The position numbers were made by a program, and so were the translations under genes. The notes beneath the pieces are model-generated. The model made no database searches, was not told the DNA's origin, and was given only the letters and a program-made list of their open reading frames with translations. A stretch of 41,296 nucleotides of DNA, from positions 1 through 41,296 of the IMG/VR virus record IMGVR_UViG_3300030450_000764; one strand, given 5' to 3'. The stretch's first letter is position 1; every line of letters begins with the position of its first letter. Shown piece by piece: positions 5-27,572 of the stretch. Origin of the DNA: a virus.

Positions 5-102
5 CTAAAATGAAACGCTTAATTCCTTTCCTCTTTCTCTTCGCGGTATCTCCTGCACAGGCTGGCTATATCCATAAAATTACAGCCTCAGCACAGGGCA
101 TC
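5..102. repeat. 98-bp terminal direct repeat (circular contig overlap)
   Basis: Bases 5-102 are identical to 41199-41296. The four bases before position 5 differ from those before 41199, so the overlap is exactly 98 bp with a ragged left edge. This is what an assembler leaves at the ends of a circular or circularly permuted phage genome. A short true terminal repeat is possible but less likely, because the repeat covers the start of a coding gene. Confidence 0.9.
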
Positions 103-528
103 GTGGATGGCAGTTACTCAAATGCAACCCGCCTAGGCTCAACCTATTCCATGAGTTCGTCAGGGGTCACAGCAGGAACGCTTGGAAAGTTAACAGCACC
201 CGCCGCTGATAGTAACGGTGATCTGACGGGTGTGGCAGCAACGATGGGTTCGACGGCATACACCCAAACCACCGCAGGCGCGGCTACGGCTTTAACAGAA
301 TCGTTCACTATGGGCGATAATATAACCAGCGCAACAGCAGTCTCAGCGACTACAGGGGCAACGGCTACCCTCCCTAGCCTCGGTTCTACTGTTACTTATA
401 GCGGTGGTAATAGAACAACAATGGCAATAGGGATCACAACCGTAGGCGGCGGCACAGTTAGCCTAACTCCAGGTTCGTCAGGGACGAGCGTAACGGGTTC
501 CGTAACAAGTACGTTGCAAGTTGACTAA
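10..528 (+). CDS. Secreted Ser/Thr/Gly-rich protein, unknown function
   Basis: A 172-residue protein that starts with a clear signal peptide: MKR, a hydrophobic core LIPFLFLFAV, then SPAQA|GY as a type I cleavage site. The mature part is almost entirely Thr, Ser, Gly and Ala with no cysteine, as expected for an extended beta structure. Its start overlaps the stop of the two-TM gene at 40713-41207 across the circular junction (ATGA), and the next gene follows directly. The three consecutive genes here all begin MKR plus a signal peptide, so they form one export cassette. Function is not known. A surface, lysis or virion decoration role is possible. Confidence 0.85.
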   Translation: MKRLIPFLFLFAVSPAQAGYIHKITASAQGIVDGSYSNATRLGSTYSMSSSGVTAGTLGKLTAPAADSNGDLTGVAATMGSTAYTQTTAGAATALTESFTMGDNITSATAVSATTGATATLPSLGSTVTYSGGNRTTMAIGITTVGGGTVSLTPGSSGTSVTGSVTSTLQVD

Positions 529-960
529 ATGAAAAGGGCATTAATCCTTTTGGTACTATTGCCAAGCCCTTGCTTTGCTATTCCTGTAATCCCAAATTTT
601 GCAGCAGGAAATAGCATAAGCCGAACGACCAGCTCTAGCGAAACGCGAGAAATTATCCGTTCATATTCTTACTCGACAGGCTACCAATATACCTCTGGGG
701 GTTCAAATATAGAGCCGCTAAATGGCGGCACAATTACACCGCCTTCCGTCGGTGGAACACCAACAACTATTAATGGAATAACGTCAACAACAACAAGCAT
801 AGATTTGAATAATAAGCCTCAATGGAAGCAGTCAGTCGCGGGTGCTAATACTCAATACCATGAAACCTATATGGGGCCAGGGTTAAATTCTTTTGTTGAA
901 ATAGATAGGACTATAACTATACAATCAGTGACAGAATCAACAAGTACATTTACACAGTGA
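529..960 (+). CDS. Secreted small protein, cyanophage-type family
   Basis: A 143-residue protein with a signal peptide (MKRALILLVLLPSPCFA|IP). The mature part is rich in Ser, Thr, Gly and Asn and ends in QSVTESTSTFTQ. It starts on the base after the previous stop and its TGA overlaps the next GTG start, so it belongs to the three-gene export cassette. From memory, proteins of this pattern (FxPG near the start, EIDRT..QSVT..FTQ at the end) occur in T4-like cyanophages of marine picocyanobacteria. That match was not searched. Function unknown. Confidence 0.8.
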   Translation: MKRALILLVLLPSPCFAIPVIPNFAAGNSISRTTSSSETREIIRSYSYSTGYQYTSGGSNIEPLNGGTITPPSVGGTPTTINGITSTTTSIDLNNKPQWKQSVAGANTQYHETYMGPGLNSFVEIDRTITIQSVTESTSTFTQ

Positions 961-1670
961 AAAGGATATTACCCTTACTATTTATTAGTCTAGGGCTGCA
1001 ATCTCCTGCGCTAAGTAATACCACTTCTACAGCAAACCCAATCGCTAATTCCTCTGGGAGCGTCCAAAATGTTGGCGTAATGAACATGCCAACCCGTCAA
1101 TTCCAGAACCAAGTAGGATTAAATACAGTTGTCTGTCAAGGAGATACCTTGGTTGTCCAACCTTTTCTGACCACAGGATTCAGCGCAACAAGGCCATATC
1201 AAAGCAGCTACCTCGATCCCATTTATTCAACTAGGGACATAGAAGGAACTACAGACGCAGATGGGAATGTTGTAGGCGACGGCGACGCGGATGATCCAGG
1301 AAAAGTCATTGGTTACAGGACGATCAGAACGGCACAAAAAGACAACTATTCAATCTCACCAGGAATAAGTGTTAGCTGGAATATTCAACTTGACAGAAAA
1401 TCTGTTAATACTTGTAGGCAAGCACAGAAAAGACAATCAGATTTGATTCTGGCAAAGCTAAACGATCAGAAAATAGCAGTCGAATTAGGACGGTTGAAGA
1501 CATGCGGTGATCTTATGAGCAAGGGCTATCGCTACAAGCCTGGAACAAAATACGCAATATTATGCGCCGACGTTGAGTTGGTAAGTACTCCGAATACGTT
1601 GATTGATCATCAACATCCTATTTCTTCAACGGTGGCAAATCCTTCTTCTGGCGGTAACGATTCGCAATAA
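957..1670 (+). CDS. Secreted protein with RDxE/DDPG motif, cyanophage-type family
   Basis: A 237-residue protein from a GTG start that overlaps the previous stop (GTGA). The signal peptide MKRILPLLFISLGLQSPALS is followed by a mature domain with about five cysteines (VVCQGD, NTCRQ, KTCGDL, ILCADV). Other marks are a DADDPGKVIGYRTIRTAQKD segment and a helical stretch around LNDQKIAVELGRLKTCGDLM. I recall this family, next to the protein encoded opposite it, from marine T4-like cyanophages (recall, not searched). Its last 53 bases overlap the convergent gene 1618-2349. Possible roles are a secreted structural, adhesion or lysis factor; the sequence does not decide. Confidence 0.82.
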   Translation: MKRILPLLFISLGLQSPALSNTTSTANPIANSSGSVQNVGVMNMPTRQFQNQVGLNTVVCQGDTLVVQPFLTTGFSATRPYQSSYLDPIYSTRDIEGTTDADGNVVGDGDADDPGKVIGYRTIRTAQKDNYSISPGISVSWNIQLDRKSVNTCRQAQKRQSDLILAKLNDQKIAVELGRLKTCGDLMSKGYRYKPGTKYAILCADVELVSTPNTLIDHQHPISSTVANPSSGGNDSQ

Positions 1671-7727: not shown

Positions 7728-8969
7728 TTAACCAGCCTCCAATGCTGCGACTTTAGTTTCTAATGCCTTAATTCTATCGTCTTGTCGTTTAATTAAATTA
7801 ACTAAATGAGGTACGAACCTTTCATAAGCAACGTTATCAGGTTCAGGTTCAGACAAAGGAGTCCTTATTGGAGCTCCAGTTTTGTTGTTTGGATCTGGAG
7901 CATAATCAGCAACTTTCCAAGTAACTAATCTTGGATCAATAGCAGCAACTTCTTCTGCAATAAATCCCCAATAACCCCAATCCTTATTCTGACCCTGTGG
8001 GATATTCACTTTAGTATCATCTTGCTGATACCAAGTAGGTCGCATTGTTAATATTTTATCTGCATAACTATCTTGAATAGTTTCTATATTCTTCTTCCAC
8101 TTTCCAGAAGAACTAGAACGACCCATCCCTCCATCTTCAAAGACAAAAACGTTGGCTGATAAACCAGCATTAGTGTTTGAACTATATAAAGAACTATACC
8201 AAACGCCTGAACCAGTTATTCTCAATCTACTAGCTATATCTCCACCGCTAGGTCTAGTTTGAAGTTGAAGACCTCCATCGTCTTTATTTGTCGTATCACT
8301 GCCAGCTGTTAAATATATTGCACAATTTTGATTACCATTCCATCTACCATCAATAATACCTAAAGCATTGTCGGCAGAAGTTCTATTAGCATCCATTATT
8401 AGTGCTGTATATTCATTAGCACTGTTGACAATCTTTACACCAGTTTCACCACCACCAGCCGTACCTCTTATATCAAGTAAAGTTGTAGGCGACTCGATTC
8501 CTATTCCGACTTTTCCATCTGCTTTTATAGAGAATGGAGTACTCCAACTTATTGTGCCATCTGCTGAACCACTTGCTGCTGTTCTGAAATCATATCTACC
8601 ATCATTCATATAAAGATAATTTGCATGTCCACTCCCAATATATTTTCCAGTATCACTGGTATTAACGTAATAATTAACACTTATACCACCTCTATCTTCA
8701 TCGCCACTACCTCTTCCAATAACAGCAAGACCTGTTCCTATTTGTAATGCTCTAAAGTCTCCACCAGTTTTCCAAGATTTAGGTGTAACACCTAATCCCA
8801 TCTCGCCATTTGAATTAATAAGCGCTCTTGAAACCCCCGCTGTAGAGGCATGTATCTCGTCAGACGCATAATAGACTCCGCTGTTTGCGTCTGTTCCTCT
8901 TACGCTTGGACTGCCCGCAGATCCGTCTACTGATGCTATTCCTGTTGAACCATTAATCGTTATTGCCAT
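7728..8969 (-). CDS. Tail fiber with C-terminal S74 intramolecular chaperone
   Basis: A 413-residue fiber. Residues 1-284 carry repeats of the GxGTxxP/GIGIESPTTLLDIRG type found in fiber shafts. Residues 285-413 look like a peptidase S74 domain: SSSSGKWKKNI at the processing site, then MRPTWYQ, WGFIAEEVAAIDP, YERFVPHLVNLIK and a terminal coiled coil RIKALETKVAALEAG. In endosialidase-type proteins this domain helps the fiber trimerise and then cuts itself off at a serine, using a Ser/Lys pair. The serine cluster 285-288 and K290/K292 are the likely active site. The mature fiber would then be about 285 residues. Confidence 0.9.
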   Translation of the reverse strand: MAITINGSTGIASVDGSAGSPSVRGTDANSGVYYASDEIHASTAGVSRALINSNGEMGLGVTPKSWKTGGDFRALQIGTGLAVIGRGSGDEDRGGISVNYYVNTSDTGKYIGSGHANYLYMNDGRYDFRTAASGSADGTISWSTPFSIKADGKVGIGIESPTTLLDIRGTAGGGETGVKIVNSANEYTALIMDANRTSADNALGIIDGRWNGNQNCAIYLTAGSDTTNKDDGGLQLQTRPSGGDIASRLRITGSGVWYSSLYSSNTNAGLSANVFVFEDGGMGRSSSSGKWKKNIETIQDSYADKILTMRPTWYQQDDTKVNIPQGQNKDWGYWGFIAEEVAAIDPRLVTWKVADYAPDPNNKTGAPIRTPLSEPEPDNVAYERFVPHLVNLIKRQDDRIKALETKVAALEAG

Positions 8970-9590: not shown

Positions 9591-12500
9591 TTAAGCCCCT
9601 CTGCCATAACCGACAGCAGTCCAAGAGAAGTTCTTGTTAATTCCTGAACCTCCTGAGTTCTTCAAGGTTACAGTAAATTGCGTTCCTGTAACAGTTCCCA
9701 TGTCGATGTAATCACCGCTAGAAAGTCCATGAACAATAACAGAAACACTTGGCAAATAGGCTGTTGTGCTTCCACCTAGATCAGAAGTTCCTGTCCAGAA
9801 AGGCTTGGTGAAAGTTATCGTTTTAGCAGAAGTAGTACTAGCAACAACTCCGTTACTATGTTCAGTCCTTTGATCGAATCTTGCTTCATAACCTAGCTGG
9901 TCAATTAAAATATTCTCCGTTGTATCTCCGCTTGTTAAATCTGTTTTGAACTGGAATCCTCTACCGCTAAATGTTCCATTCTTTAGCGATACCCAAGAGC
10001 CCCAAGTGGGCGAACTACTTGGATTATCATTGGTTGCACGAATAGAAAGAGAAGCGTTTACATCATCAATGATGTCACCGTCCCAGTCTGACCTTGCATC
10101 AACGTCGGGCCAAACATCCATCAAATCACTTGGTCTTATTCCTCTAGTTACAAAATAGCGTTGGACATCTAAAGCAAAGACACCGCCTAAATCTAAAGTG
10201 TCATCGAAAGTATAAGAACCTGTACTGTTTATATCCCCACCGCTTGAAGTTAACTGAAGGGCATCAAGAGTAGCGTCATATTCTGTATTTGTCTTACTTC
10301 CTGCAAATGGTGTTGGACTGATTTGATCATCCCTTTGATTCTTAACTAATAGCGTTTCTGCTTTTTGTGCTGTTGTTTGGATAACTATGCTTGTGGCATT
10401 TGTACTGAAGTTTCCAGAATCATCGGCAAATTTAACTAATGTCTCTCCTGTTAATTTAGGGATTATTACCTCTGTAGAAGCACCAGCAATCGCATCAATA
10501 AGATCAATAGAGTTGTTCCATGTTCCAGTGCCATCGGTCAGACCTGAATGACGAATATGAACTTTACCTCCTACTTTTACATCAAGAGCCGTTGTCTGGT
10601 CCCATTTAAGCCTTCCTGAGTTCGGGCTAATATCTTCAAAGGTTAAATTGGCAACATCACCAGGAACAGCCGTTTTTCCTAATAAATTGAAAGTATTAGT
10701 AGAGAACGGACTTGCAAATCCTAAATGATTCGTCGCTTGTATTTGTGTTTTTAAAGTCCCAACTCTTAACCTTTCTATTCTTATAGCAGTAGAAGTTTCT
10801 CTAATTGTTGTCCAGTTATCATCATTTAACTGATAACTAATTATATATTCAGAAGCAGCACCGTTAGCTGGTGGCGACCAATCTAATTCAAAGGCTGTTT
10901 TTATACTTTGACCGTCTTGATATAAATGCTCTTCACCCGTAACATTAGTAACAGCCTCAGGAACAATGCTTAAATTACTAATATCAGGGACGGATATTGC
11001 TTGGTCACGGTCTACTGCATCGTAGATGCTACTGTTGTAAGCTATTGCTGAAACGGAGTAAGAAGCATTGCTGCCTTCTGATATTTGTAAAACTCTGAAC
11101 TGTTGATATTTAATATCATCTGTTTCAATCATCCATACTGATTGCACATTAGGAGTTTCCGAGAAGGCAGAAGAAAGTGTAATTGTAGTCCCACTAATTG
11201 ACTGAACATCTTTCTTTTCTATTAATCCAGAAGGTAAAATAACAGAACATTTTGGATTGTTTGCTAAATCTATTGAGCCTAAATCTGTATCACTATCAGC
11301 ATCAAATATAGTTGTAGAAGTAACAGAAGAAATCCTACCGCTCCTTCTTTTTCCACTCCTTACTGGATCTGCAATATCTATAACCATCCCAGGGGATAGA
11401 ATTATCCCACTTTCTAAAGCAACCCCAAAGGTAACTGTTTCAGTTAAATTCTGTTCGCTAAGTAATAACCATTCACCAAATCTGTGCGCTTGTCCTTGTG
11501 AATAACACCCGACTGCTTTTGTCGCTTTATTTATAACTCCGTAGTTACTAATTCCATCAGCATCTTCAACATATTCATGCTGAACTTCTCCTAATAAACC
11601 ATAGTCTTGCCATGCAACGGTACAAGTTGTGTGCCTAGATTTCTGAGAGGAGCCTGTATAAGTAAACATCCCGTTAATCACATTCGATGGACTTAAGACA
11701 TATTGACTATCGGACGGACTATCTTGATTAAGGATAAACGCGCCAGCTCCGTAATAACTAATTCCCCTAAAAGCAGAAGAAAGCTCGTTAATTGCGTCAA
11801 AGATCTCAGACCTTGAGTGCATATATAAATTCAAAGAGAATCGTGGCTCTGTTCCTCCTTTTCCATCTGGGACCAATTCATTGCAATATTTCGAGCATGT
11901 ATAAAAATCCCACTTATCAAGTGAAGCTGTAGGGATCGACGCCCCATAACGAGTCGATGTCATAAGATCCCATAAACACCAAGCAGGATCTGAACACCAT
12001 TGAGCAGAACCAAACGAACCATTCCAAATACCTGAATAAGTGACTCTCCCTGTGTTTGAGTCAACAGAAGCATTAGACGGAAGTTGTATCTTTATGCCCT
12101 TAATGTGATAACGCCTTTGAGGGATCCCATTAAAGCTTCTTGAATCAAACCTTAAATAGCACAGGGCAGAATTAGGATATCTGAACTTTTCATCAATAAT
12201 TTCGGTATAGCTTGCCCATGTTGTTACCGTTTGATTTTTTGTTGTTTGATTATCTGCGGTAACTCTTACTAATTTAATATCTACAGGGAACGCACCTGTC
12301 AACGCAATCATATAATCTCGCTTATAAGAGTTGCTACTTTTACCGCTAAAGTTTGCATTTGCAACAGTGTTGTAGCCTCCTCCGTTGTACTGAATATCAA
12401 TTCTACACTGAACGGAATTGCCATTAACATCTCCGTTATCCTGGAACTTCTGTAAACTTGGGAGGCTTATTGTAACTCTTACTCTATCGATTGTCGTATC

Positions 12501-13289
12501 TGTAATTTGTCTTATAACAGGACTCGCATTTGTAACATTTAAACTAACATTTACTTCTCTTTGACTGCCTATTGATCGACTTATATAAGATTGGGCTTGT
12601 GTTCCTGTTTTTGTTTCGAGAACATAGCCTTCAAAATTAGAACTGCCATCACTACTTTTCAGCGGTGTTCCGTCTAAATAAATCCCCTTTTCATTATCAA
12701 CAATCCCACCGATTTCACCTTCACAGAGTAGATCAATAACTTCTACACGTTGAAAACTTTGAAGTGTGTCGTCTGCTTCAACAGGAGTATGACCGCCGCC
12801 ACCTTTTGATCCTCCGCCACCAGAGCCACGGATCCCTAGTCCAAGACCTGCATTGTGGACTCTAATGTTCTCAGCAATAAATGTATGTTGATTCTCAACC
12901 GTTAAGTTGTAAACAGTACCGACTCCTATCTTTTTCTTTTCTATTAATGGAACTAAATGATTATTCTGATTAACTACACAGTCGTCTTCTTTAAGAGTTC
13001 CAACCCCGACAAAAGCATTGAATTGATTTAAGACCCAATGGTTAGGCGTAGCTGTAAAAGAATCACCGCCCCAAAACTTGAACCACCAAATCTCTTCTTC
13101 TTCATGCTGATGTACTTTTAAGACCTTTGCTTCATGTATTTTTCCTTGATCATCAAAACTTAAAACAATATCGCCTTCAAAAATTGAATTAATTTCCTTA
13201 TAGCCATTCGGGACTGATACGCGAGTAGTGCCAATAAAACACCCTCCTCCTGCTCCAGCAATATTTGGTTTAGTTATTGAATTAGTCAT
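9591..13289 (-). CDS. J: Tail tip attachment protein (lambda J-like) with N-terminal Hint domain
   Basis: A 1232-residue central tip protein. After a 16-residue leader, residues 17-146 are an intein-like Hint domain (separate entry). Next comes a glycine-rich linker and the lambda J-type start GGHTPVEADDTLQSFQRVEV, followed by IDLLCEGEIGGIV. The middle (about 430-720) is the phage-tail/J core. A fibronectin III-like domain (about 770-865, WSPPANGAASEYIISYQLND) and a beta-rich C-terminus follow. Lambda J contacts the receptor and closes the tail tip. The ATG overlaps the stop of the I-like gene (ATGA). If the Hint domain cuts itself out, the mature protein would start at Ala147 and be 1086 residues. 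Confidence 0.92.
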   Translation of the reverse strand: MTNSITKPNIAGAGGGCFIGTTRVSVPNGYKEINSIFEGDIVLSFDDQGKIHEAKVLKVHQHEEEEIWWFKFWGGDSFTATPNHWVLNQFNAFVGVGTLKEDDCVVNQNNHLVPLIEKKKIGVGTVYNLTVENQHTFIAENIRVHNAGLGLGIRGSGGGGSKGGGGHTPVEADDTLQSFQRVEVIDLLCEGEIGGIVDNEKGIYLDGTPLKSSDGSSNFEGYVLETKTGTQAQSYISRSIGSQREVNVSLNVTNASPVIRQITDTTIDRVRVTISLPSLQKFQDNGDVNGNSVQCRIDIQYNGGGYNTVANANFSGKSSNSYKRDYMIALTGAFPVDIKLVRVTADNQTTKNQTVTTWASYTEIIDEKFRYPNSALCYLRFDSRSFNGIPQRRYHIKGIKIQLPSNASVDSNTGRVTYSGIWNGSFGSAQWCSDPAWCLWDLMTSTRYGASIPTASLDKWDFYTCSKYCNELVPDGKGGTEPRFSLNLYMHSRSEIFDAINELSSAFRGISYYGAGAFILNQDSPSDSQYVLSPSNVINGMFTYTGSSQKSRHTTCTVAWQDYGLLGEVQHEYVEDADGISNYGVINKATKAVGCYSQGQAHRFGEWLLLSEQNLTETVTFGVALESGIILSPGMVIDIADPVRSGKRRSGRISSVTSTTIFDADSDTDLGSIDLANNPKCSVILPSGLIEKKDVQSISGTTITLSSAFSETPNVQSVWMIETDDIKYQQFRVLQISEGSNASYSVSAIAYNSSIYDAVDRDQAISVPDISNLSIVPEAVTNVTGEEHLYQDGQSIKTAFELDWSPPANGAASEYIISYQLNDDNWTTIRETSTAIRIERLRVGTLKTQIQATNHLGFASPFSTNTFNLLGKTAVPGDVANLTFEDISPNSGRLKWDQTTALDVKVGGKVHIRHSGLTDGTGTWNNSIDLIDAIAGASTEVIIPKLTGETLVKFADDSGNFSTNATSIVIQTTAQKAETLLVKNQRDDQISPTPFAGSKTNTEYDATLDALQLTSSGGDINSTGSYTFDDTLDLGGVFALDVQRYFVTRGIRPSDLMDVWPDVDARSDWDGDIIDDVNASLSIRATNDNPSSSPTWGSWVSLKNGTFSGRGFQFKTDLTSGDTTENILIDQLGYEARFDQRTEHSNGVVASTTSAKTITFTKPFWTGTSDLGGSTTAYLPSVSVIVHGLSSGDYIDMGTVTGTQFTVTLKNSGGSGINKNFSWTAVGYGRGA
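12852..13241 (-). other. Hint (bacterial intein-like, BIL-type) domain in J, residues 17-146
   Basis: A 130-residue self-processing domain. Block A: Cys17 in CFIGTTRVSVPNG. Block B: SFTATPNHWVL with the TPxH histidine. Block F: VYNLTVENQHTFIAENIRVHN, ending His145-Asn146. The next residue is Ala147, not Cys, Ser or Thr, so standard splicing lacks its +1 nucleophile. This is the BIL pattern, in which Asn cyclisation and thioester hydrolysis cut the protein rather than join it. There is no homing endonuclease. Glycine-rich sequence flanks both edges (GAGGG before, GLGLG after). Expected outcome: autoproteolysis that trims the tip protein. Confidence 0.85.
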
Positions 13290-13924
13290 GCGTCAAAGGT
13301 ATCTAAGCCAGCGCTTAGGACAGCACTTCCAACAAAGCATTTACCGTAAATAATTGGTATTGGTCCACCTTGTCCTGTTGTTTGTTGAATCCCACTAAAT
13401 GAAAAACTCTGTAATCTACTTGCTTCTGGCGGAGCCTGTGGGACTGGCGTCAACATTTGAGCAATACCACCAAGCATTAATGCAACACCCATTGTTCCGA
13501 CCATTGTTCCAATAGAGATGCCTGCCCCAATTCCAAAAGTTCCAATAGTTGCACCACCAAAACCTCCAGCGAATCCTGCCGCGCCTATTCCTCCTGTCAT
13601 AACTACGGCTGCGACCATAAAAGCACCTACAACAAATCGCCCAAAGCCACCAGAGCCAGCAAGGACAGGGGTTATATGAAAAACATCCTTCTCACTCCAA
13701 GGATGAAAAAGAGTTTCTATATTATCTTCTCCCACTTCAGTCTCCCCCAACAGAACTTTGTAAACGATCCCATCTTGTCCGCTGTTAACAATCCATTTAT
13801 CCAGACCTGCGAAATTTGCACATAAAGCTTTTAGAGCTTCTGCCGGATTAAAAACATCAAGCTCGAACGTTCCTTGACCTCCGAGCCTCTCTTTTAATGC
13901 ACCGTAGACTTTAACGACTTTCAT
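13286..13924 (-). CDS. I: Tail assembly protein, lambda I-like
   Basis: A 212-residue protein. The N-terminal half (KVVKVYGALKERLGGQGTFE, then ALKALCANF, LFHPWSEKDVFHITPVLAGSG) is the lambda I family ubiquitin-like domain. A glycine-rich hydrophobic segment follows (MVAAVVMTGGIGAAGFAGG) and a tail ending with PIPIIYGKCFVGS. It overlaps J by ATGA and the K-like gene by 14 bases, the same order as in lambda. Lambda I acts with K, L and J in tip assembly. Confidence 0.88.
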   Translation of the reverse strand: MKVVKVYGALKERLGGQGTFELDVFNPAEALKALCANFAGLDKWIVNSGQDGIVYKVLLGETEVGEDNIETLFHPWSEKDVFHITPVLAGSGGFGRFVVGAFMVAAVVMTGGIGAAGFAGGFGGATIGTFGIGAGISIGTMVGTMGVALMLGGIAQMLTPVPQAPPEASRLQSFSFSGIQQTTGQGGPIPIIYGKCFVGSAVLSAGLDTFDA

Positions 13925-15523: not shown

Positions 15524-15865
15524 TTACGGCTCCGCTACTTGTTCAAATGTTGCTTGAATCGTTGCTCTGTTTTTATAAGGGATAGTTTTACCCCAACTGG
15601 TACAAACAAACTTTGATGCGCTGCTTTCCCCTGGAGCAGTCCAATCGAAAGATTCGCTTCCGGCTCTTGCGTCCAAAAAATCAGAAATCGTGTCAGCATC
15701 CGTTTCGCTGATATTCGTCCATTTCGGATTGTATTTTTTCAAATTTTGATTCAGGCCAAAAACTGTCCTCATGGAATATCCGTCACCAAATTGAACTTGT
15801 CTTACATTTGGTTTGCTGTTTTTCCTTAATCCATAATCGGGGGTAATGCTTGGGAAAGTTGCCAT
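15524..15865 (-). CDS. M: Minor tail protein, lambda M-like
   Basis: A 113-residue protein starting MATFPSITPDYGLRKNSKPN, then VQFGDGYSMR and, near the C-terminus, WTAPGESSASKFVC and ATIQATFEQV. This is the lambda M/phage minor tail family, which joins the tail tip to the tape-measure end. It sits between the tape measure and L, in the lambda order, with gaps of two or three bases. Confidence 0.9.
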   Translation of the reverse strand: MATFPSITPDYGLRKNSKPNVRQVQFGDGYSMRTVFGLNQNLKKYNPKWTNISETDADTISDFLDARAGSESFDWTAPGESSASKFVCTSWGKTIPYKNRATIQATFEQVAEP

Positions 15866-15867
15866 AA

Positions 15868-17880
15868 TTAAGCTCCTGCTAAAAGACCACCAGGACGACG
15901 CTGCTTAACCAATTCGCTTTGAATAGCAGCCGCCAACATCTCACCAAGAGCGCGCCCTTGTTCCTCGTTACCTTCCACAGAACTACCAGAAGCGTCAACA
16001 GAAACGTTAACATTATTTGTTGTCCCTCCTAATGCATTATTCGGTGTAATACCTCCAGACCTGCCAGGGGTAAACAATTCGGGACCACGTTCTCCAACCA
16101 TGTAAGATTGCCCGCCTGATACTGGACCTCCCTTTGCTCTAGCTCTACCCGCCTCTATCTCGTTAGCTCCTGTCATCCCACCCATCTGGCTCGACACATC
16201 AACGGGTCCGAATTTATTGCCAAGCCATCCAGAGAAGCCACGCATAAGTGGCGCAATGATCGCCTGTCTTATTGCTATTCGAGTCATATCAGCGATAATT
16301 GATCTTGCAAAATCAGAAAATGACAGCTTCCCAGTTTGGACAAAGGAAACTAAAGCGTCCTCCATCCCACGGAATGATTTCACCACTATGTCACCAACTT
16401 GACCACCGAAATCTTGGACGCTCTTGGCATAAGTGCTGAATTTTTTAGCGAAAGCATCTTGGAACTGCGCCGAGGTTTGTTCTGTTATATCCTTCAACGC
16501 ACCCATCGCCTCGCTTGCTTTCTTGATTTCCTCCGCTGCAATGTCTCCAGGGATTTCTGTCAAGCGACCCCTAAGTTCTTCTAACTGAGTATTAAGCCCT
16601 TGTATCCTCGCCACCAAATGGCTAGTAGAAGCATCACTAGAAGTTGCGGTAGAACTGCCACCAAAAGCTCTTTCTGGGTTAATGCCTTGTCCTCGCTTGT
16701 TAGCCGCCTCAATTCTTTGCAGAGCTAATTGCGCCTCTGCTAAAGCCAACTCTCTCGTACTTATTGCTGCCTTGACCGCCGCCGTGTCTGTTCCTTTCAG
16801 CAAGTCGTTATATTCTTCGGCTGCCCTTTTGCTTTTAACTTGTTGATCCGCTAAGGCAAAAATTCCAACTGTTAAAAGAGACAGACCAATAACGACTGGT
16901 CCCATCGCTGCCTTTGTTAATCCAATAGCAGGGAGGAATTTCCTTAGAAGGAAGACCCTAAAGATCCTCCAAGCCCTGTGAGCTCGTTGTATTCCAAAGG
17001 CCATCGGTCCCCATGCAGTAGCGAGAGCAGCTACGGCGACAGTGGCCTGCTTTACTGGAGCAGGAAGATCAGCAACCCATTTTACCGCTTCCGTTATAGC
17101 TTTTGTCACGGCGACAACAGCAGGGAGCAAATACTCTCCCATCTCAACACTTAAATCGCTAATTACATTCTGCAAATTCTTGAAGGCTTGCTCTGGAGAT
17201 CTCGCCATTAAAGCCTCAATGCTTGCGCCTCCCTCGTTCTCAATGCGCTTTAAAGCTTTGATAACAATTTCACTTGTGACTTTGCCTTCTGATGCAAGTT
17301 TTTTGATCTGACCGACAGGCTTACCCATTTCTTTTGCAATAATCTGAGTCAAAATTGGGAGTTGTTCCGCGATCGACCTATATTCATCACCTTGTAAACG
17401 GCCAGAACCTAACGCTTGAGATAGCTGCAAGAACGCTCCAGAGGCTTGCTGTGCGCTAACTCCTGCCAGTTTTGTGGCAACGTTAAAGCCCATATATGTC
17501 GTCTCAATCTCTTTCAACGTCACACCTATCGGTCTTAAACGTCCATAAATATCAGTGATACCGCTTAAAGCTTCTGTTTGACTTAGGCCGAATCTTTTTG
17601 CTGCTCTTGCTGCTAAGTTTTGCGCGCCTTCGTTCTCTCCATATTGCTTTGTTAAAAGCTCTAAACGTATTTGAGTCTGCTTAAAAGAAGCCGCCATTTT
17701 TACCATGCGCCGCCCTGTTTCGGCTAAAGCTAGTTTTGTTAATACACTTTGCAGACCTCCGAAACTTTTTTGAGCCTTTAGGTTTTGTTTTGCTAAACGT
17801 CCTGTTGCATTACCTAACTCGCGGAGTTTCGCAATAGCATCCCGCGCATCAACCCTAAATTTTACGAGTGATTCAGCCAT
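15868..17880 (-). CDS. H: Tape measure protein (lambda H-like)
   Basis: A 670-residue protein. The N-terminus is a helical core (VRKF-type charged start, then LGNATGRLAKQNLKAQKSFG). Residues 60-250 carry the tape-measure domain, with GLSQTEALSGITDIYGRLRP, LSQALGSGRLQGDEYRSIAE and GKVTSEIVIKALK. A hydrophobic middle (about 270-345) holds likely membrane segments. The C-terminus has the lambda-H end (TGKLSFSDFARSIIADMTRI). Length sets tail length: at about 1.5 angstrom per residue, near 100 nm. It follows the G-T gene with a 9-base gap, and no strong Shine-Dalgarno is seen. Confidence 0.92.
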   Translation of the reverse strand: MAESLVKFRVDARDAIAKLRELGNATGRLAKQNLKAQKSFGGLQSVLTKLALAETGRRMVKMAASFKQTQIRLELLTKQYGENEGAQNLAARAAKRFGLSQTEALSGITDIYGRLRPIGVTLKEIETTYMGFNVATKLAGVSAQQASGAFLQLSQALGSGRLQGDEYRSIAEQLPILTQIIAKEMGKPVGQIKKLASEGKVTSEIVIKALKRIENEGGASIEALMARSPEQAFKNLQNVISDLSVEMGEYLLPAVVAVTKAITEAVKWVADLPAPVKQATVAVAALATAWGPMAFGIQRAHRAWRIFRVFLLRKFLPAIGLTKAAMGPVVIGLSLLTVGIFALADQQVKSKRAAEEYNDLLKGTDTAAVKAAISTRELALAEAQLALQRIEAANKRGQGINPERAFGGSSTATSSDASTSHLVARIQGLNTQLEELRGRLTEIPGDIAAEEIKKASEAMGALKDITEQTSAQFQDAFAKKFSTYAKSVQDFGGQVGDIVVKSFRGMEDALVSFVQTGKLSFSDFARSIIADMTRIAIRQAIIAPLMRGFSGWLGNKFGPVDVSSQMGGMTGANEIEAGRARAKGGPVSGGQSYMVGERGPELFTPGRSGGITPNNALGGTTNNVNVSVDASGSSVEGNEEQGRALGEMLAAAIQSELVKQRRPGGLLAGA

Positions 17881-23501: not shown

Positions 23502-23750
23502 ATGCCTAGCCCAATTAAGCAAGAAGAAGGATTCACCGTTCGTCAATTAAAGCAATTATTAGCATCTGTTCCCGATGTTGATGGTGAAGGCAACGAGTCA
23601 ATGGTCTATGTCGTAACAGGCAATCAGATGGCCGACGTTATTACGCTAGGTAAAGCAGACGACCAAGACGACATCCTTCTAGTCCCTGGTTTTTGGACCG
23701 ATGTTATGGAAGAACTTGAAACGCTAGACAATTTTATTGCTGACGATTAA
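23502..23750 (+). CDS. Small acidic protein encoded against the operon
   Basis: An 82-residue very acidic protein (only about 4 Lys/Arg, many Asp/Glu). It starts MPSPIKQEEGFTVRQLKQLL, then SVPDVDGEGNESMVYVVTGN, ADDQDDILLVPGFW. It is the only plus-strand gene inside the 31-kb leftward block. It is convergent with the highly basic gene 23747-25048, and their stop codons overlap on TTAA. AGGAAG and GCAACCCCC precede the ATG. Function unknown. Acidic partners often neutralise basic proteins, so it may control or shield the histone-like protein; this is inference. Confidence 0.72.
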   Translation: MPSPIKQEEGFTVRQLKQLLASVPDVDGEGNESMVYVVTGNQMADVITLGKADDQDDILLVPGFWTDVMEELETLDNFIADD

Positions 23751-25048
23751 AAGCGAGGACCGAAATTCTTCCAAGCTGTACTTCCGCCCATTGCCTTAGT
23801 CATAATATCCTCGGCCTGCTGCATCCGTTTTCTACGTCTTGCCGCAGATGGACCAGATGGGCCGCCTCTTATTAAATTACGTTTAGCCGTTCTTAAAATA
23901 CGATCTCTCTTTGTAGCGGCTGAACCTCTCCTTTGCTGACTAGCCCTTCTTTTCGCCTTGCTGCCTTTACCTCTAGAAGATTGTTTAGCCGAGGACTTCA
24001 TCTGTTGCTTAAGGCTTTCTCCTCCAGGTAAACGCCCTTTAGGAGTTCTGCCCTTAGTCTTTTGTCCAATCATTGCTTGTGTCTGCCTGTATCCAATACC
24101 CTTTCGCTTCTGTGCTGCTGTTCCTCTTCCTTTAGTTGCTCCGCCTCTTTCTCTTATTAAGTCTCTTCTCTTGATCCTTGCTTCTTGTCCTTTTTTAGAT
24201 AGGCCATAACCTTTTCCTTTTGTTGCACCCTTACTCATTGACTTCTTCATCTTCGTAAACTTACCCTTCGCCGCTGCGCCTTTCTTCGCTTCTTTTGTTC
24301 CTCTGTCTATCTGACTAAATCTTTCGGCTGTCTTTGCTGCTGTCTTCGCTTTCTTATAACGTTGCTTGGCTGTTCCTTGGGCTTTCTTGGCAGTGGCAGT
24401 TTTCTTAGCAGCGGCAGCCTTCTTGGTTGCGGGCCTCTTCTTCACTCCCTTGAACTCACTACCTCTTAATTCTTTGTTTGCAAACTTCTTACTGTCGATT
24501 TTTGCCCTTAATTTTTGAGACTTTGTTTTTGATCCTGCTCTTGGTGCTTTCGTTTTCGCGGGTGTTTCTCTGAAACCCTGAGAATAAGCTTTTTTCCCCG
24601 TTTGCTTCTTAATGACTCGCTTTTGTGCCGAGTCTGTGGTTGATCTGCTCTTTCTATCTGCGCCCTTTGCTGCTTTCCATTCTTTTTTTGCTGCGCGGCC
24701 TTTTGTTGCTTTACTGCTGAATTTTTTAGCTCTACTTGCTTTAGCTTGTTTTGCGAAATTCTTCTTTAAGCCTGCGCCTGCCGCTGTTCTTTTCTTCGTT
24801 AACTTATTGGTGACGCGAGTTAAACCTGATTTTGCTCCGCCTATTTGCTTTCTATGTGCCGCCGATCCTTTCTTTGTATTAATACCGATTCCACTTTGCT
24901 TCTTTCTTAATTTACTAGCTGCTGCCTTATAAGTTGAGCGTGCTTTCAAGTTCTTAGCCGACTTTCCCATCTTGCCGCCTTTGCCTCTGGTCCCTCCTCC
25001 TTTAGAAGCGAAACGCCCGCCTTTATCTCTTACATATCTACGAGCCAT
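23747..25048 (-). CDS. Histone H1-like Lys/Arg-rich protein
   Basis: A 433-residue protein with extreme basic charge: about 30% Lys or Arg in the first 70 residues. It starts MARRYVRDKGGRFASKGGG and has many AKK, KGR and GKG repeats, with no acidic core. The only ordinary segment is the C-terminus (MQQAEDIMTKAMGGSTAWKN). The MARRYVRD.RGRFA start recurs in marine phages by recall. It lies in the head block between MuF and scaffold genes, so it is probably inside the head, where it could condense DNA or be injected. It is far longer than typical phage internal basic proteins. Function not proven. Confidence 0.8.
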   Translation of the reverse strand: MARRYVRDKGGRFASKGGGTRGKGGKMGKSAKNLKARSTYKAAASKLRKKQSGIGINTKKGSAAHRKQIGGAKSGLTRVTNKLTKKRTAAGAGLKKNFAKQAKASRAKKFSSKATKGRAAKKEWKAAKGADRKSRSTTDSAQKRVIKKQTGKKAYSQGFRETPAKTKAPRAGSKTKSQKLRAKIDSKKFANKELRGSEFKGVKKRPATKKAAAAKKTATAKKAQGTAKQRYKKAKTAAKTAERFSQIDRGTKEAKKGAAAKGKFTKMKKSMSKGATKGKGYGLSKKGQEARIKRRDLIRERGGATKGRGTAAQKRKGIGYRQTQAMIGQKTKGRTPKGRLPGGESLKQQMKSSAKQSSRGKGSKAKRRASQQRRGSAATKRDRILRTAKRNLIRGGPSGPSAARRRKRMQQAEDIMTKAMGGSTAWKNFGPRF

Positions 25049-25098: not shown

Positions 25099-25293
25099 CT
25101 AATCAAAGACCGCTTTTAAAATATTTATATCTTTATCTGATCGACAGTCAACATATAACCCCTCGATCAACCATCCCATCTTTTCTTTCTCCTCCTCTCC
25201 CTTAGCCTTATTTATTGCATCAGCAAGCTTCCGAGGAACAGTCTTATCCCTCGGCCATGCTCTTGTCATTTCCATGGCTTCAATCAGAGTCAT
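25099..25293 (-). CDS. Small charged head-region protein
   Basis: A 64-residue protein from ATG at 25293 (MTLIEAMEMTRAWPRDKTVP ... WLIEGLYVDCRS). That ATG overlaps the MuF gene's stop (ATGA), so this start is preferred over the upstream one that adds 11 residues. No family recognised. It is helical and mixed charge, placed between MuF and the basic protein. Confidence 0.7.
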   Translation of the reverse strand: MTLIEAMEMTRAWPRDKTVPRKLADAINKAKGEEEKEKMGWLIEGLYVDCRSDKDINILKAVFD

Positions 25294-27572
25294 TTTAGAG
25301 CTTCCTCCAATGTCTCCTCGACCCAATTATAAACTCGAGGGGCTTCTTGCTTTAAACCTTCAGGATTTAAAACATATTGAACAAAGCCCTCTGCAAATTG
25401 TTCGCGAGGATTTTTATAAGCATAACCCGTAACTTTTGCAACTCCCCCTAGCCCCTTCCATTTGCTTCCTAATGCAACACCGCCTGAGCCTTTGGCATGA
25501 ACCTGATGACCGATCTCATGGATCATTGTAACGATCCAATTGCTTCCTTTTTCTGTCTTATAAACTGTTGACCCTGTGGTCCAGTCAATAACGTTCGCCA
25601 TATTCACAGGTGACTTACCCAAGAGTTTATTTGCCTCAACCGTTTTCGCTAAGACTTCCGCAGCCGTTTTCTTAATAAATTGCGCTCTAGAAGCTGTAAT
25701 TCTTGTTGATACTCCTGTTAATTTAGTGTTGATAATATTTGAAGTCATAAAGGTATATCCATTAGCCCTGCTCCCAGGAGACTCTAGAAGAAGCTTCAAA
25801 GTCTCGTTCCTCCCATTACCGTCCTTAATTCGTGCTGCTTTCCTTAAGAACCAGCTCTTCTCCTTCCCTACATAAGTTCGATTGTATTCACCATATTTCT
25901 CTAAATCCTTTACGGCTGAGTCCATGCTCTTCTTCAAATCTGCCTTGTAATACCAAGCAGCATTAGAAGATTTCCACTTTTCTCCCTTCATCGTAAAATT
26001 GTTGAAAATATTGTGCTTAGTCATAAAGCGACGCATCTTTCTAGAATTAGCCCCTGTCTCTCCACCTAGCTCCTCTATTTGATTCCAACTTGACTCAACC
26101 ATACCCTTTATACCTTCTTCTCTGTATGAAATAAGTTTCTGAAGCTGCGCCTCGACTTCAGGTGATCCGACAGTAGTGCTTGCAATCGAACCCGCCTTGG
26201 CCTGTGCGGCTCTTATGTTTTTCGCCAGCTCGTCAAGCTGTTTCTCATTCTTAATAACAATCGTTGGTTCTGACGGCCTAACTACTTTCTTCAATTTATA
26301 ATCACGCCTTAAATTAGATAATGTCTTCTCTGTTCCGTCCTCCCTTACCAAGCTAACAATTGCCTTATTCGGATCTTTATATCTAGCGGCCAATCGATTA
26401 AAATAAACGGCTTTATCATATCCAAGCGCGTCAATCTGCTCGACTCCAGGCAAAACTTTTCTCCCTTCCTTTACCCTTTTGCTATATAACCAATCGCCAT
26501 ATTTTTCAGTGGCAGGTACAAGACCATCTTTTGATTGCCGTCTTGCTTCGCCAACTCCCTCGATCTTGTCGGGTGCAACAATCCCATAGTCTTTTTCTAA
26601 TCCATCCCAATCAATAACAGGAACAGTTGTTGACCTGCAATTGAAATGCAACGGCGGCATCGGTCCTTCTTCGTAATCAAATAACTTCCCATCCTTTGAC
26701 GCACATAAAAGAGTTGTATTACTGTCGAGCGTTGCCACGTATCTATATTTCTTAGTGACTTCTGAGTTTGCCTTATATGTCTCTTGGCTTGCAGTGTTTG
26801 AAACTTGGTTAACGCTTGTCCTTACGAGCGTCATTATTTGATTATTCGCCAAACGAGTACCGTCTTTTCCTCCCGCCAATGCAATTGCCCTGGCACTTGC
26901 CTTCTGACCTCGGCCAAACTCCATTCCTTCAAAATTAAACTTATCCTGTGTCCCAATTATTTGACGGACAATCTTATCTGTAGATAGTCCCGTTAACATC
27001 CCAGTTTGCACAGTCATTCTGAATTTCTGCGCTGATGTATTAGCAATACCCCTAAAAGCTTTTTCCACAGTGTCGCCATTAGGCAAGACCATTGGCGTGC
27101 CTTGTTTTGCAGTCAATTTATAAACGCCTTTACCCGTCAAAGAATCACCCGCCTCCGTCGTGACAAGATTTAGCTCAGTTGGGTCTTTCGTTACAACGGC
27201 CTTTGCAAATTGAGGACTAATCTCTAATTCTCGAATAAGCCCATCAGCTTCGGGTATCTCCTGAAGTAATTGAGCTAACGCGAACTCACTTTCTATTTTT
27301 GCTAACTCATCAAGATCCTTCGTCATAAATTTTGAAGCGTCACCAGCCCAACCATTAAGGCTTGTTTTTAAAGATCCGATAATCTGCCTCAACCTCTTGG
27401 CTCTATAAGAAGACGAATAAGCCTCCGAACTCATCGACTGCAATTCCTTCGTCGCATCGACCAAAATGCGGTTATAAGTAATCATTAATTTCTTCGCCAC
27501 GCCTGTCTCGTAACGATTCAAATTAATAGCGTGTTTAAAAACACTTGATGGCGTTCCGCTAGGGTCAGCCAT
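25290..27572 (-). CDS. MuF head protein with C-terminal zincin peptidase domain
   Basis: A 760-residue protein. Residues 190-325 are a phage MuF/SPP1 gp7-like domain (LVRTSVNQVSNTASQETYKA, TLDSNTTLLC with Cys290, GPMPPLHFNCRSTTVPV with His309 and Cys312). About 300 residues of mixed helices follow. Residues 640-760 are a metallopeptidase-like region with HEIGHQVH (His685, Glu686, His689) and NPREQFAEGFVQYV, where Glu724 or Glu728 may be the third ligand. MuF proteins sit at the portal and travel with DNA; their C-terminal extensions are often toxin-like. This one would be a peptidase delivered to the host or used in maturation. The peptidase call rests on the motif alone. Confidence 0.85.
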   Translation of the reverse strand: MADPSGTPSSVFKHAINLNRYETGVAKKLMITYNRILVDATKELQSMSSEAYSSSYRAKRLRQIIGSLKTSLNGWAGDASKFMTKDLDELAKIESEFALAQLLQEIPEADGLIRELEISPQFAKAVVTKDPTELNLVTTEAGDSLTGKGVYKLTAKQGTPMVLPNGDTVEKAFRGIANTSAQKFRMTVQTGMLTGLSTDKIVRQIIGTQDKFNFEGMEFGRGQKASARAIALAGGKDGTRLANNQIMTLVRTSVNQVSNTASQETYKANSEVTKKYRYVATLDSNTTLLCASKDGKLFDYEEGPMPPLHFNCRSTTVPVIDWDGLEKDYGIVAPDKIEGVGEARRQSKDGLVPATEKYGDWLYSKRVKEGRKVLPGVEQIDALGYDKAVYFNRLAARYKDPNKAIVSLVREDGTEKTLSNLRRDYKLKKVVRPSEPTIVIKNEKQLDELAKNIRAAQAKAGSIASTTVGSPEVEAQLQKLISYREEGIKGMVESSWNQIEELGGETGANSRKMRRFMTKHNIFNNFTMKGEKWKSSNAAWYYKADLKKSMDSAVKDLEKYGEYNRTYVGKEKSWFLRKAARIKDGNGRNETLKLLLESPGSRANGYTFMTSNIINTKLTGVSTRITASRAQFIKKTAAEVLAKTVEANKLLGKSPVNMANVIDWTTGSTVYKTEKGSNWIVTMIHEIGHQVHAKGSGGVALGSKWKGLGGVAKVTGYAYKNPREQFAEGFVQYVLNPEGLKQEAPRVYNWVEETLEEALK

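Follow-up and report, generated by a model that had tools for sequence, protein, structure and literature searches.

The tail tip protein J encoded in a viral DNA stretch of 41,296 nt (record IMGVR_UViG_3300030450_000764; the whole stretch is termed the window, and all positions are given in its coordinates) starts with a complete Hint-superfamily domain of the BIL type, and among related phages this domain is an allele rather than a fixed part of J. In the reading preferred here, to which a probability of roughly 0.6 is assigned, an A-type-BIL-like self-processing leader would free J at Ala147, and the allelic cassette would have been spread by recombination at glycine-codon repeats.

The J gene and its surroundings

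The features referred to below are the following:
9591..13289, minus strand: J precursor, tail tip/central fibre protein, 1232 aa, open frame from ATG to stop
13286..13924, minus strand: gpI-like tail assembly/plug protein (PHROG 32, E=4.4e-46)
15524-15865: M-like protein, named by gene order and appearance only
15868-17880: tape-measure-like protein, named by gene order and appearance only
13242..13289, minus strand: N-extein-like leader MTNSITKPNIAGAGGG, 16 residues, with GGG just ahead of Cys1; glycine-rich in all relatives
12852..13241, minus strand: Hint domain (A-type-BIL-like), J residues 17-146, from Cys1 to His129-Asn130, supported by profiles, AlphaFold and Foldseek
13239..13241, minus strand: Cys17 codon TGT (Hint Cys1), predicted N-side nucleophile
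13038..13049, minus strand: block B TPNH, J residues 81-84 (Hint 65-68)
12852..12857, minus strand: His145-Asn146 (Hint His129-Asn130), predicted site of C-side cleavage by Asn cyclisation
12792..12851, minus strand: C-flank AGLGLGIRGSGGGGSKGGGG, residues 147-166, predicted new N-terminus of J

Residues 157-1063 of J match PHROG 31 ("central tail fiber J", E=1.9e-224), and further matches were obtained with Pfam FNIII-A_GpJ (E=5.4e-37) and with NF049904 lambda_TipJ (E=3.6e-117, which lies under that model's own cut-off). The tail genes ahead of J stand in the lambda-like order L-K-I-J, with L identified by Phage_tail_L (E=2.6e-55) and K by its JAB and NlpC/P60 domains; the TGA of the gpI-like gene and the ATG of J share an ATGA overlap, as read from the sequence. 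Hub, FNIII domains and gene order together are those of a lambda J tail tip.

Several other genes of the window were recorded in passing. A tail fibre-like protein of the same tail region (7728-8969, minus strand) has a Peptidase_S74 intramolecular chaperone at its end and so contains a further self-cleaving module. A MuF-like head protein (25290-27572, minus strand; Phage_Mu_F, E=5.3e-12) bears the zinc-metalloprotease-like motif HEIGHQVH at its C terminus and gives a weak, sub-cut-off match to the ATLF domain (E=0.00095). Among the head genes lies an extremely Lys/Arg/Ala-rich protein of 433 residues (23747-25048, minus strand), DNA-condensing in appearance and without a Pfam match, and at 10-1670 (plus strand) three neighbouring genes each have an MKR start and a signal-peptide-like leader, the second being DUF6322.

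Fold and class of the Hint domain

A BIL-type Hint domain had been predicted from the sequence at 12852-13241, and this assignment was confirmed by profiles, structure prediction and homologues. Cys17, TPNH, the VHN/Ala147 junction and the block of 130 residues were all found as described, with no endonuclease insert within the Hint in the copies measured; the block-F His is present as well, in YNLTVENQHTFIA. The NCBIfam intein N- and C-terminal models TIGR01445 (E = 4e-6) and TIGR01443 (E = 0.0027) both scored above their curated cut-offs and matched 25/25 of the Hint family members tested, and Pfam Hint, PT-HINT and Intein_splicing gave E = 2e-5 to 2e-4 with the single sequence, each under its own gathering score. 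The AlphaFold model of the domain had a pLDDT of 96.6, and Foldseek against the PDB returned the BIL2 domain of T. thermophila (6y75) as the best hit (E=3.2e-11), followed by matches to the C. thermocellum BIL (2lwy, TM 0.92) and to the gp41-1 mini-intein. The closest PDB entry in the search with the Hint family profile was again 2lwy (E=5e-10). A chance match of motifs was ruled out by the agreement of profile, fold and homologue evidence.

The glycine-rich flanks also bore out the prediction. In a second model, which covered residues 1-436, the Hint folds as a domain of its own and is flanked on either side by a glycine-rich tail predicted to be disordered (residues 1-14 and 149-178, pLDDT < 50). 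The lambda-J-like start HTPVEADDTLQ is present at residue 167, although it follows Asn146 at a distance of 20 residues and not of 22 as first given.

Class 3 inteins have a block-F Cys belonging to the WCT motif and lack Cys or Ser at position 1 (PMC7664689); this class was ruled out, as position 1 is Cys and block F (TVYNLTV) has Asn112 and no Cys. The Cys, Ser or Thr at +1 of a class 1 intein is replaced by Ala147, and Ala is found in 122/123 copies. Cys1, the TxxH block B, the C-terminal His-Asn, the non-nucleophilic +1 residue and the lack of an endonuclease are all features of A-type BILs. The domain is labelled A-type-BIL-like only, because it occupies one fixed site in a phage J protein instead of a hypervariable region of a non-conserved bacterial protein.

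Occurrence and conservation

Related stretches were retrieved from a viral contig collection, 435 with the Hint query and then 567 with the alignment query. Each scan covered the best 80 loci and used exact peptide patterns, so that all frequencies are those of samples and the 123 distinct copies are partly non-independent; the viral contigs are fragments. The same insertion, for which a search of other phage J proteins had been proposed, was thus found at the same J site in uncultured viral contigs. A close Hint copy was undetected in the collection's records of isolated phages, 1,535 of which were matched by the J protein, and Prochlorococcus phage MED4-117, whose J comes nearest among the isolates, has no Hint in it. 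A prophage or cellular origin was considered and rejected: apart from remote matches, genome contigs yielded a single close one when scanned, on a 7-kb contig of a cyanobacterial MAG.

The Hint is located at the J start in 123/123 distinct copies readable. Every copy read has the same layout of start codon, short leader usually ending in IxGxGGGG, Hint, AGLG, second glycine-rich stretch and J body. Cys1 was found in 122/123 copies, His-Asn in 123/123, Ala at +1 in 122/123 (with Ser in the remaining one) and AGLG right after the Hint in 119/123, and Thr65 and His68 of block B in 93/93. The retrieval patterns NHWVLNQ and TVYNLTVE bias these counts in the Hint-based sets but not in the set of 33 copies fetched via the J body, in which all catalytic positions are intact (TPNH in 33/33). 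Each of the first 81 copies to be measured is 130 aa long, and a 25-member alignment of the Hint is gap-free. With a median dN/dS of 0.14 among Hint copies, and of 0.15 for the Hint against 0.23 for the J body in matched pairs, the domain is under strong purifying selection; recent lateral spread, and not function, may account for part of its conservation.

Single positions deserve mention. In one copy (L006:1346-1410) Gly (GGT) stands at Cys1 of an otherwise intact domain, while its close relative L002 reads TGT; the difference is due either to a sequence error or to a genuine loss of the N-side step. The sole copy with Ser rather than Ala at +1 (L011:6427-6429) is the only one able to splice by the class 1 route. 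The second cysteine, Hint Cys88 (12978-12980), and Hint Asn112 at position 4 of block F (12906-12908) are invariant in all copies counted, and a redox role of Cys88 together with Cys1 is conceivable.

Many non-catalytic positions are invariant too, for example in NHWVLNQFN, which is more than self-cutting seems to need. The Hint might accordingly stay attached to J in the virion and serve the tail tip structurally or in binding. This is considered very improbable, given that all splice-junction residues (Cys1, block-B Thr/His, block-F His and His-Asn) are conserved and that the domain is frequently and precisely absent from sister phages.

Presence and absence alleles

Retrieval with the J body gave, among the best 80 loci, 35 with the Hint, 43 without it and two with a truncated J (78 classifiable). 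Hint-less J proteins start MTRILGAGGGGGGGGGGKGGGG..TPTEADD, and Hint-bearing ones read MTRILGAGGGGGGG-Hint-AGLGLGIAGAGGGGGGGGKGGGG..TPTEADD; the C-flank thus comprises a full J N-terminus (IxGaGGGG..KGGGG..TPTEADD) as found in Hint-less J. The J bodies of L160 (without Hint) and of L130 and L132 (with Hint) are 99% identical at the protein level, and the DNA of L160 and L132 is 92-94% identical on either side of the insertion. More generally, the DNA flanking empty and occupied alleles is about 90-94% identical on both sides, and no other changes were found alongside gain or loss of the Hint in the aligned neighbouring DNA. When L160 was aligned with L135, the difference was located between the repeats GGTGCTGGTGG and GGTGCTGGCGG. 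The five-residue core of the flanks gave p = 0.0004 in the flank-similarity test; since its variable residue alone gave p = 0.17, duplication of the flanks rests mainly on the alignments of empty and occupied alleles. On a J-body tree of 69 proteins at least 13 presence/absence changes (gain or loss) were counted, at least nine of which are forced by well-supported branches. This widespread, laterally moving cassette, present or absent and bounded by imperfect repeats, had no place in the original prediction.

The alleles also bear on the proposal that cleavage acts as a control step in time with tail assembly, the Hint shielding J until the tail tip is assembled or triggering that assembly. 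Such a step would suit the location of the Hint at the J start, that is, at the gpI/gpJ boundary where plug meets hub (PMC10721106, PMC11101478), and the strong purifying selection on it. Yet 43 of the 78 classifiable nearest J relatives have no Hint, including ones with about 99% identical J bodies, and the domain comes and goes without other changes in the aligned neighbouring DNA. Phages with near-identical J bodies would therefore assemble the same tip in its absence. The proposal consequently found no support and is regarded as improbable; a timed switch is possible, but an essential one is unlikely.

Lateral movement of the cassette

Loci L121 and L109 share a stretch of 528 bp with 92% identity, which consists of J start, Hint and C-flank and ends there; identity falls to mostly 60-75% in the neighbouring sequence and to 55% between the J bodies. 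Some J proteins that are 84-86% alike bear Hints merely 64-68% alike. The 528-bp island and these mismatches between Hint and J identities argue that the cassette moves laterally, and together with the J tree they rule out strict vertical inheritance. In a further locus (L033:1023-1412) the Hint is about 79% identical to those of L028 and L055 and the J body only 34%, which indicates from the sequences that distant families of J have acquired the cassette too.

Recombination probably takes place at the glycine-codon repeats. Ordinary recombination there, homologous or slipped, would let phages gain, lose and exchange the cassette of J start, Hint and glycine-rich C-flank without homing, and the Hint would stay catalytically intact for as long as it is present. 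Neither in the element itself nor by HNH family search was the own or linked endonuclease of a homing intein found: HNH genes occur in Hint-bearing and Hint-less records alike and are missing from several Hint-bearing ones, including four of 38-41 kb.

Proposed self-processing

Residues 1-146 of J are proposed to be a self-processing leader composed of a short glycine-ended peptide and the A-type-BIL-like Hint. After translation and folding, Cys17 would form a thioester with Gly16, and Asn146 would cyclise with breakage of the Asn146-Ala147 bond. All residues for these steps are present, namely Cys1 and the block-B Thr and His for the N-side thioester and the block-F His and His-Asn for the C-side cyclisation; block-B Thr and His assist the N-side chemistry in inteins. 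As Ala at +1 makes the usual transesterification impossible, the main products would be cleaved: free Hint and a J starting AGLGLGIRGSGGGG, the N-terminus of which would resemble the direct J start of Hint-less sister phages. A direct attack by the amine of the freed Ala may also ligate leader and J in some molecules. As originally predicted, the most likely product is therefore still a mature J that starts at Ala147, and its length of 1086 residues is arithmetically right (1232-146 = 1086). Where BILs lack the +1 nucleophile, cleaved products predominate (PMC7664689), and A-type BILs retain the C-terminal His-Asn (PMC7765530).

Self-cutting as such, its chemistry, the preference for cleavage and the recombination route are all inferred. 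Cleavage is favoured over splicing because the C-flank already holds the whole glycine-rich N-terminus of Hint-less J; relative to the latter, the predicted splice product would have an extra AGLGxx and a repeated IxGxGGGG stretch. A Hint-free J made from a separate gene or an alternative start was ruled out for the window, in which the 35 codons after the Hint contain no ATG, GTG or TTG; an ATG between Hint and J body is absent in 90/93 loci. Since C-side cleavage alone needs no Cys1, the strict conservation of this residue hints at N-side cleavage or splicing too.

It is from this point that a mini-intein can be argued, one which mainly splices despite Ala at +1 and links GAGGG with AGLG; as a passenger, selfish or nearly neutral, it would have kept its residues because J must shed it. 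Conservation of Cys1 along with His-Asn is what N-side chemistry would need, the patchy alleles and lateral transfer are intein-like, and joining would do no more than extend a glycine-rich tail that is predicted to be disordered; a further paper, to judge from its citation in PMC7765530, deals with splicing by BILs that lack a +1 nucleophile. Against this, Ala has been kept at +1 in 122/123 copies, though Ser or Thr is one base change away, the element is without an endonuclease and the four records of 38-41 kb are without an HNH gene, and joining is unneeded where the C-flank holds a complete J N-terminus. Predominant splicing is thus judged unlikely, if still the most serious competitor of the self-processing leader.

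The observed pattern would be equally expected from a passenger that J must lose and from a mildly useful processing domain; the conserved Hint could also be retained for binding. What is a single-chain hub in T5 corresponds in lambda to gpL, gpI and gpJ together, gpI being the plug (PMC10721106, PMC11101478), and hypervariability has been ascribed to the site of the split (PMC13243795). The Hint lies at this gpI/gpJ boundary. An extended account is offered tentatively, at less than even odds: an endonuclease-free mobile Hint allele would insert at a glycine site, carry its own copy of the J N-terminus, remove itself, recombine through the repeats and possibly confer an advantage at the plug-hub junction. 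If this holds, the freed Hint or the processing itself may be advantageous to the phage there.

Comparison with known systems

Self-cutting Hint domains are known chiefly in bacterial secreted proteins and as inteins of nucleic-acid enzymes, and J is the host-recognising protein of the phage. No earlier description of a Hint or BIL in phage tail proteins was found in the open-licence literature, and hundreds of uncultured phage contigs carry the Hint at the start of this protein. Natural pairs with 92-94% identical DNA, with and without the Hint, make the benefit of an intein-like element to its host protein directly testable, and the annotation of phage J proteins and of virion J N-termini should allow for the domain.

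The PT-HINT, Hint_2 and Hedgehog Hint domains belong to the same superfamily, and their Pfam models match all or most members weakly, but the present carrier is a tail tip protein with no toxin or Hedgehog context. Lambda gpJ and the siphophage split hub share the lambda-type J body (PHROG 31, FNIII-A_GpJ) and the L-K-I-J order, whereas no close copy of the J Hint is detectable in the isolate phage records of the collection. The mini-inteins (gp41-1, 6qaz; mycobacteriophage terminase inteins) are alike in fold, terminal residues, sporadic alleles and lateral transfer; they differ in having Cys, Ser or Thr at +1 in place of Ala and in lying in active-site motifs instead of a disordered glycine-rich tail near the N-terminus. 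In one survey, mycobacteriophage inteins are found mostly in terminases and enzymes acting on nucleic acids or nucleotides, with a portal protein as a structural example (PMC5050341). Closest are the A-type BILs (C. thermocellum, 2lwy), which share the Hint fold (TM 0.92), Cys1, TxxH, His-Asn, the lack of an endonuclease and the non-nucleophilic +1 residue. Their described setting is a hypervariable region in a bacterial protein that is not conserved (PMC7765530); in contrast, the J Hint is found at one fixed site of a conserved phage structural protein, is followed by a nearly invariant AGLG and behaves as a mobile allele that is either present or absent.
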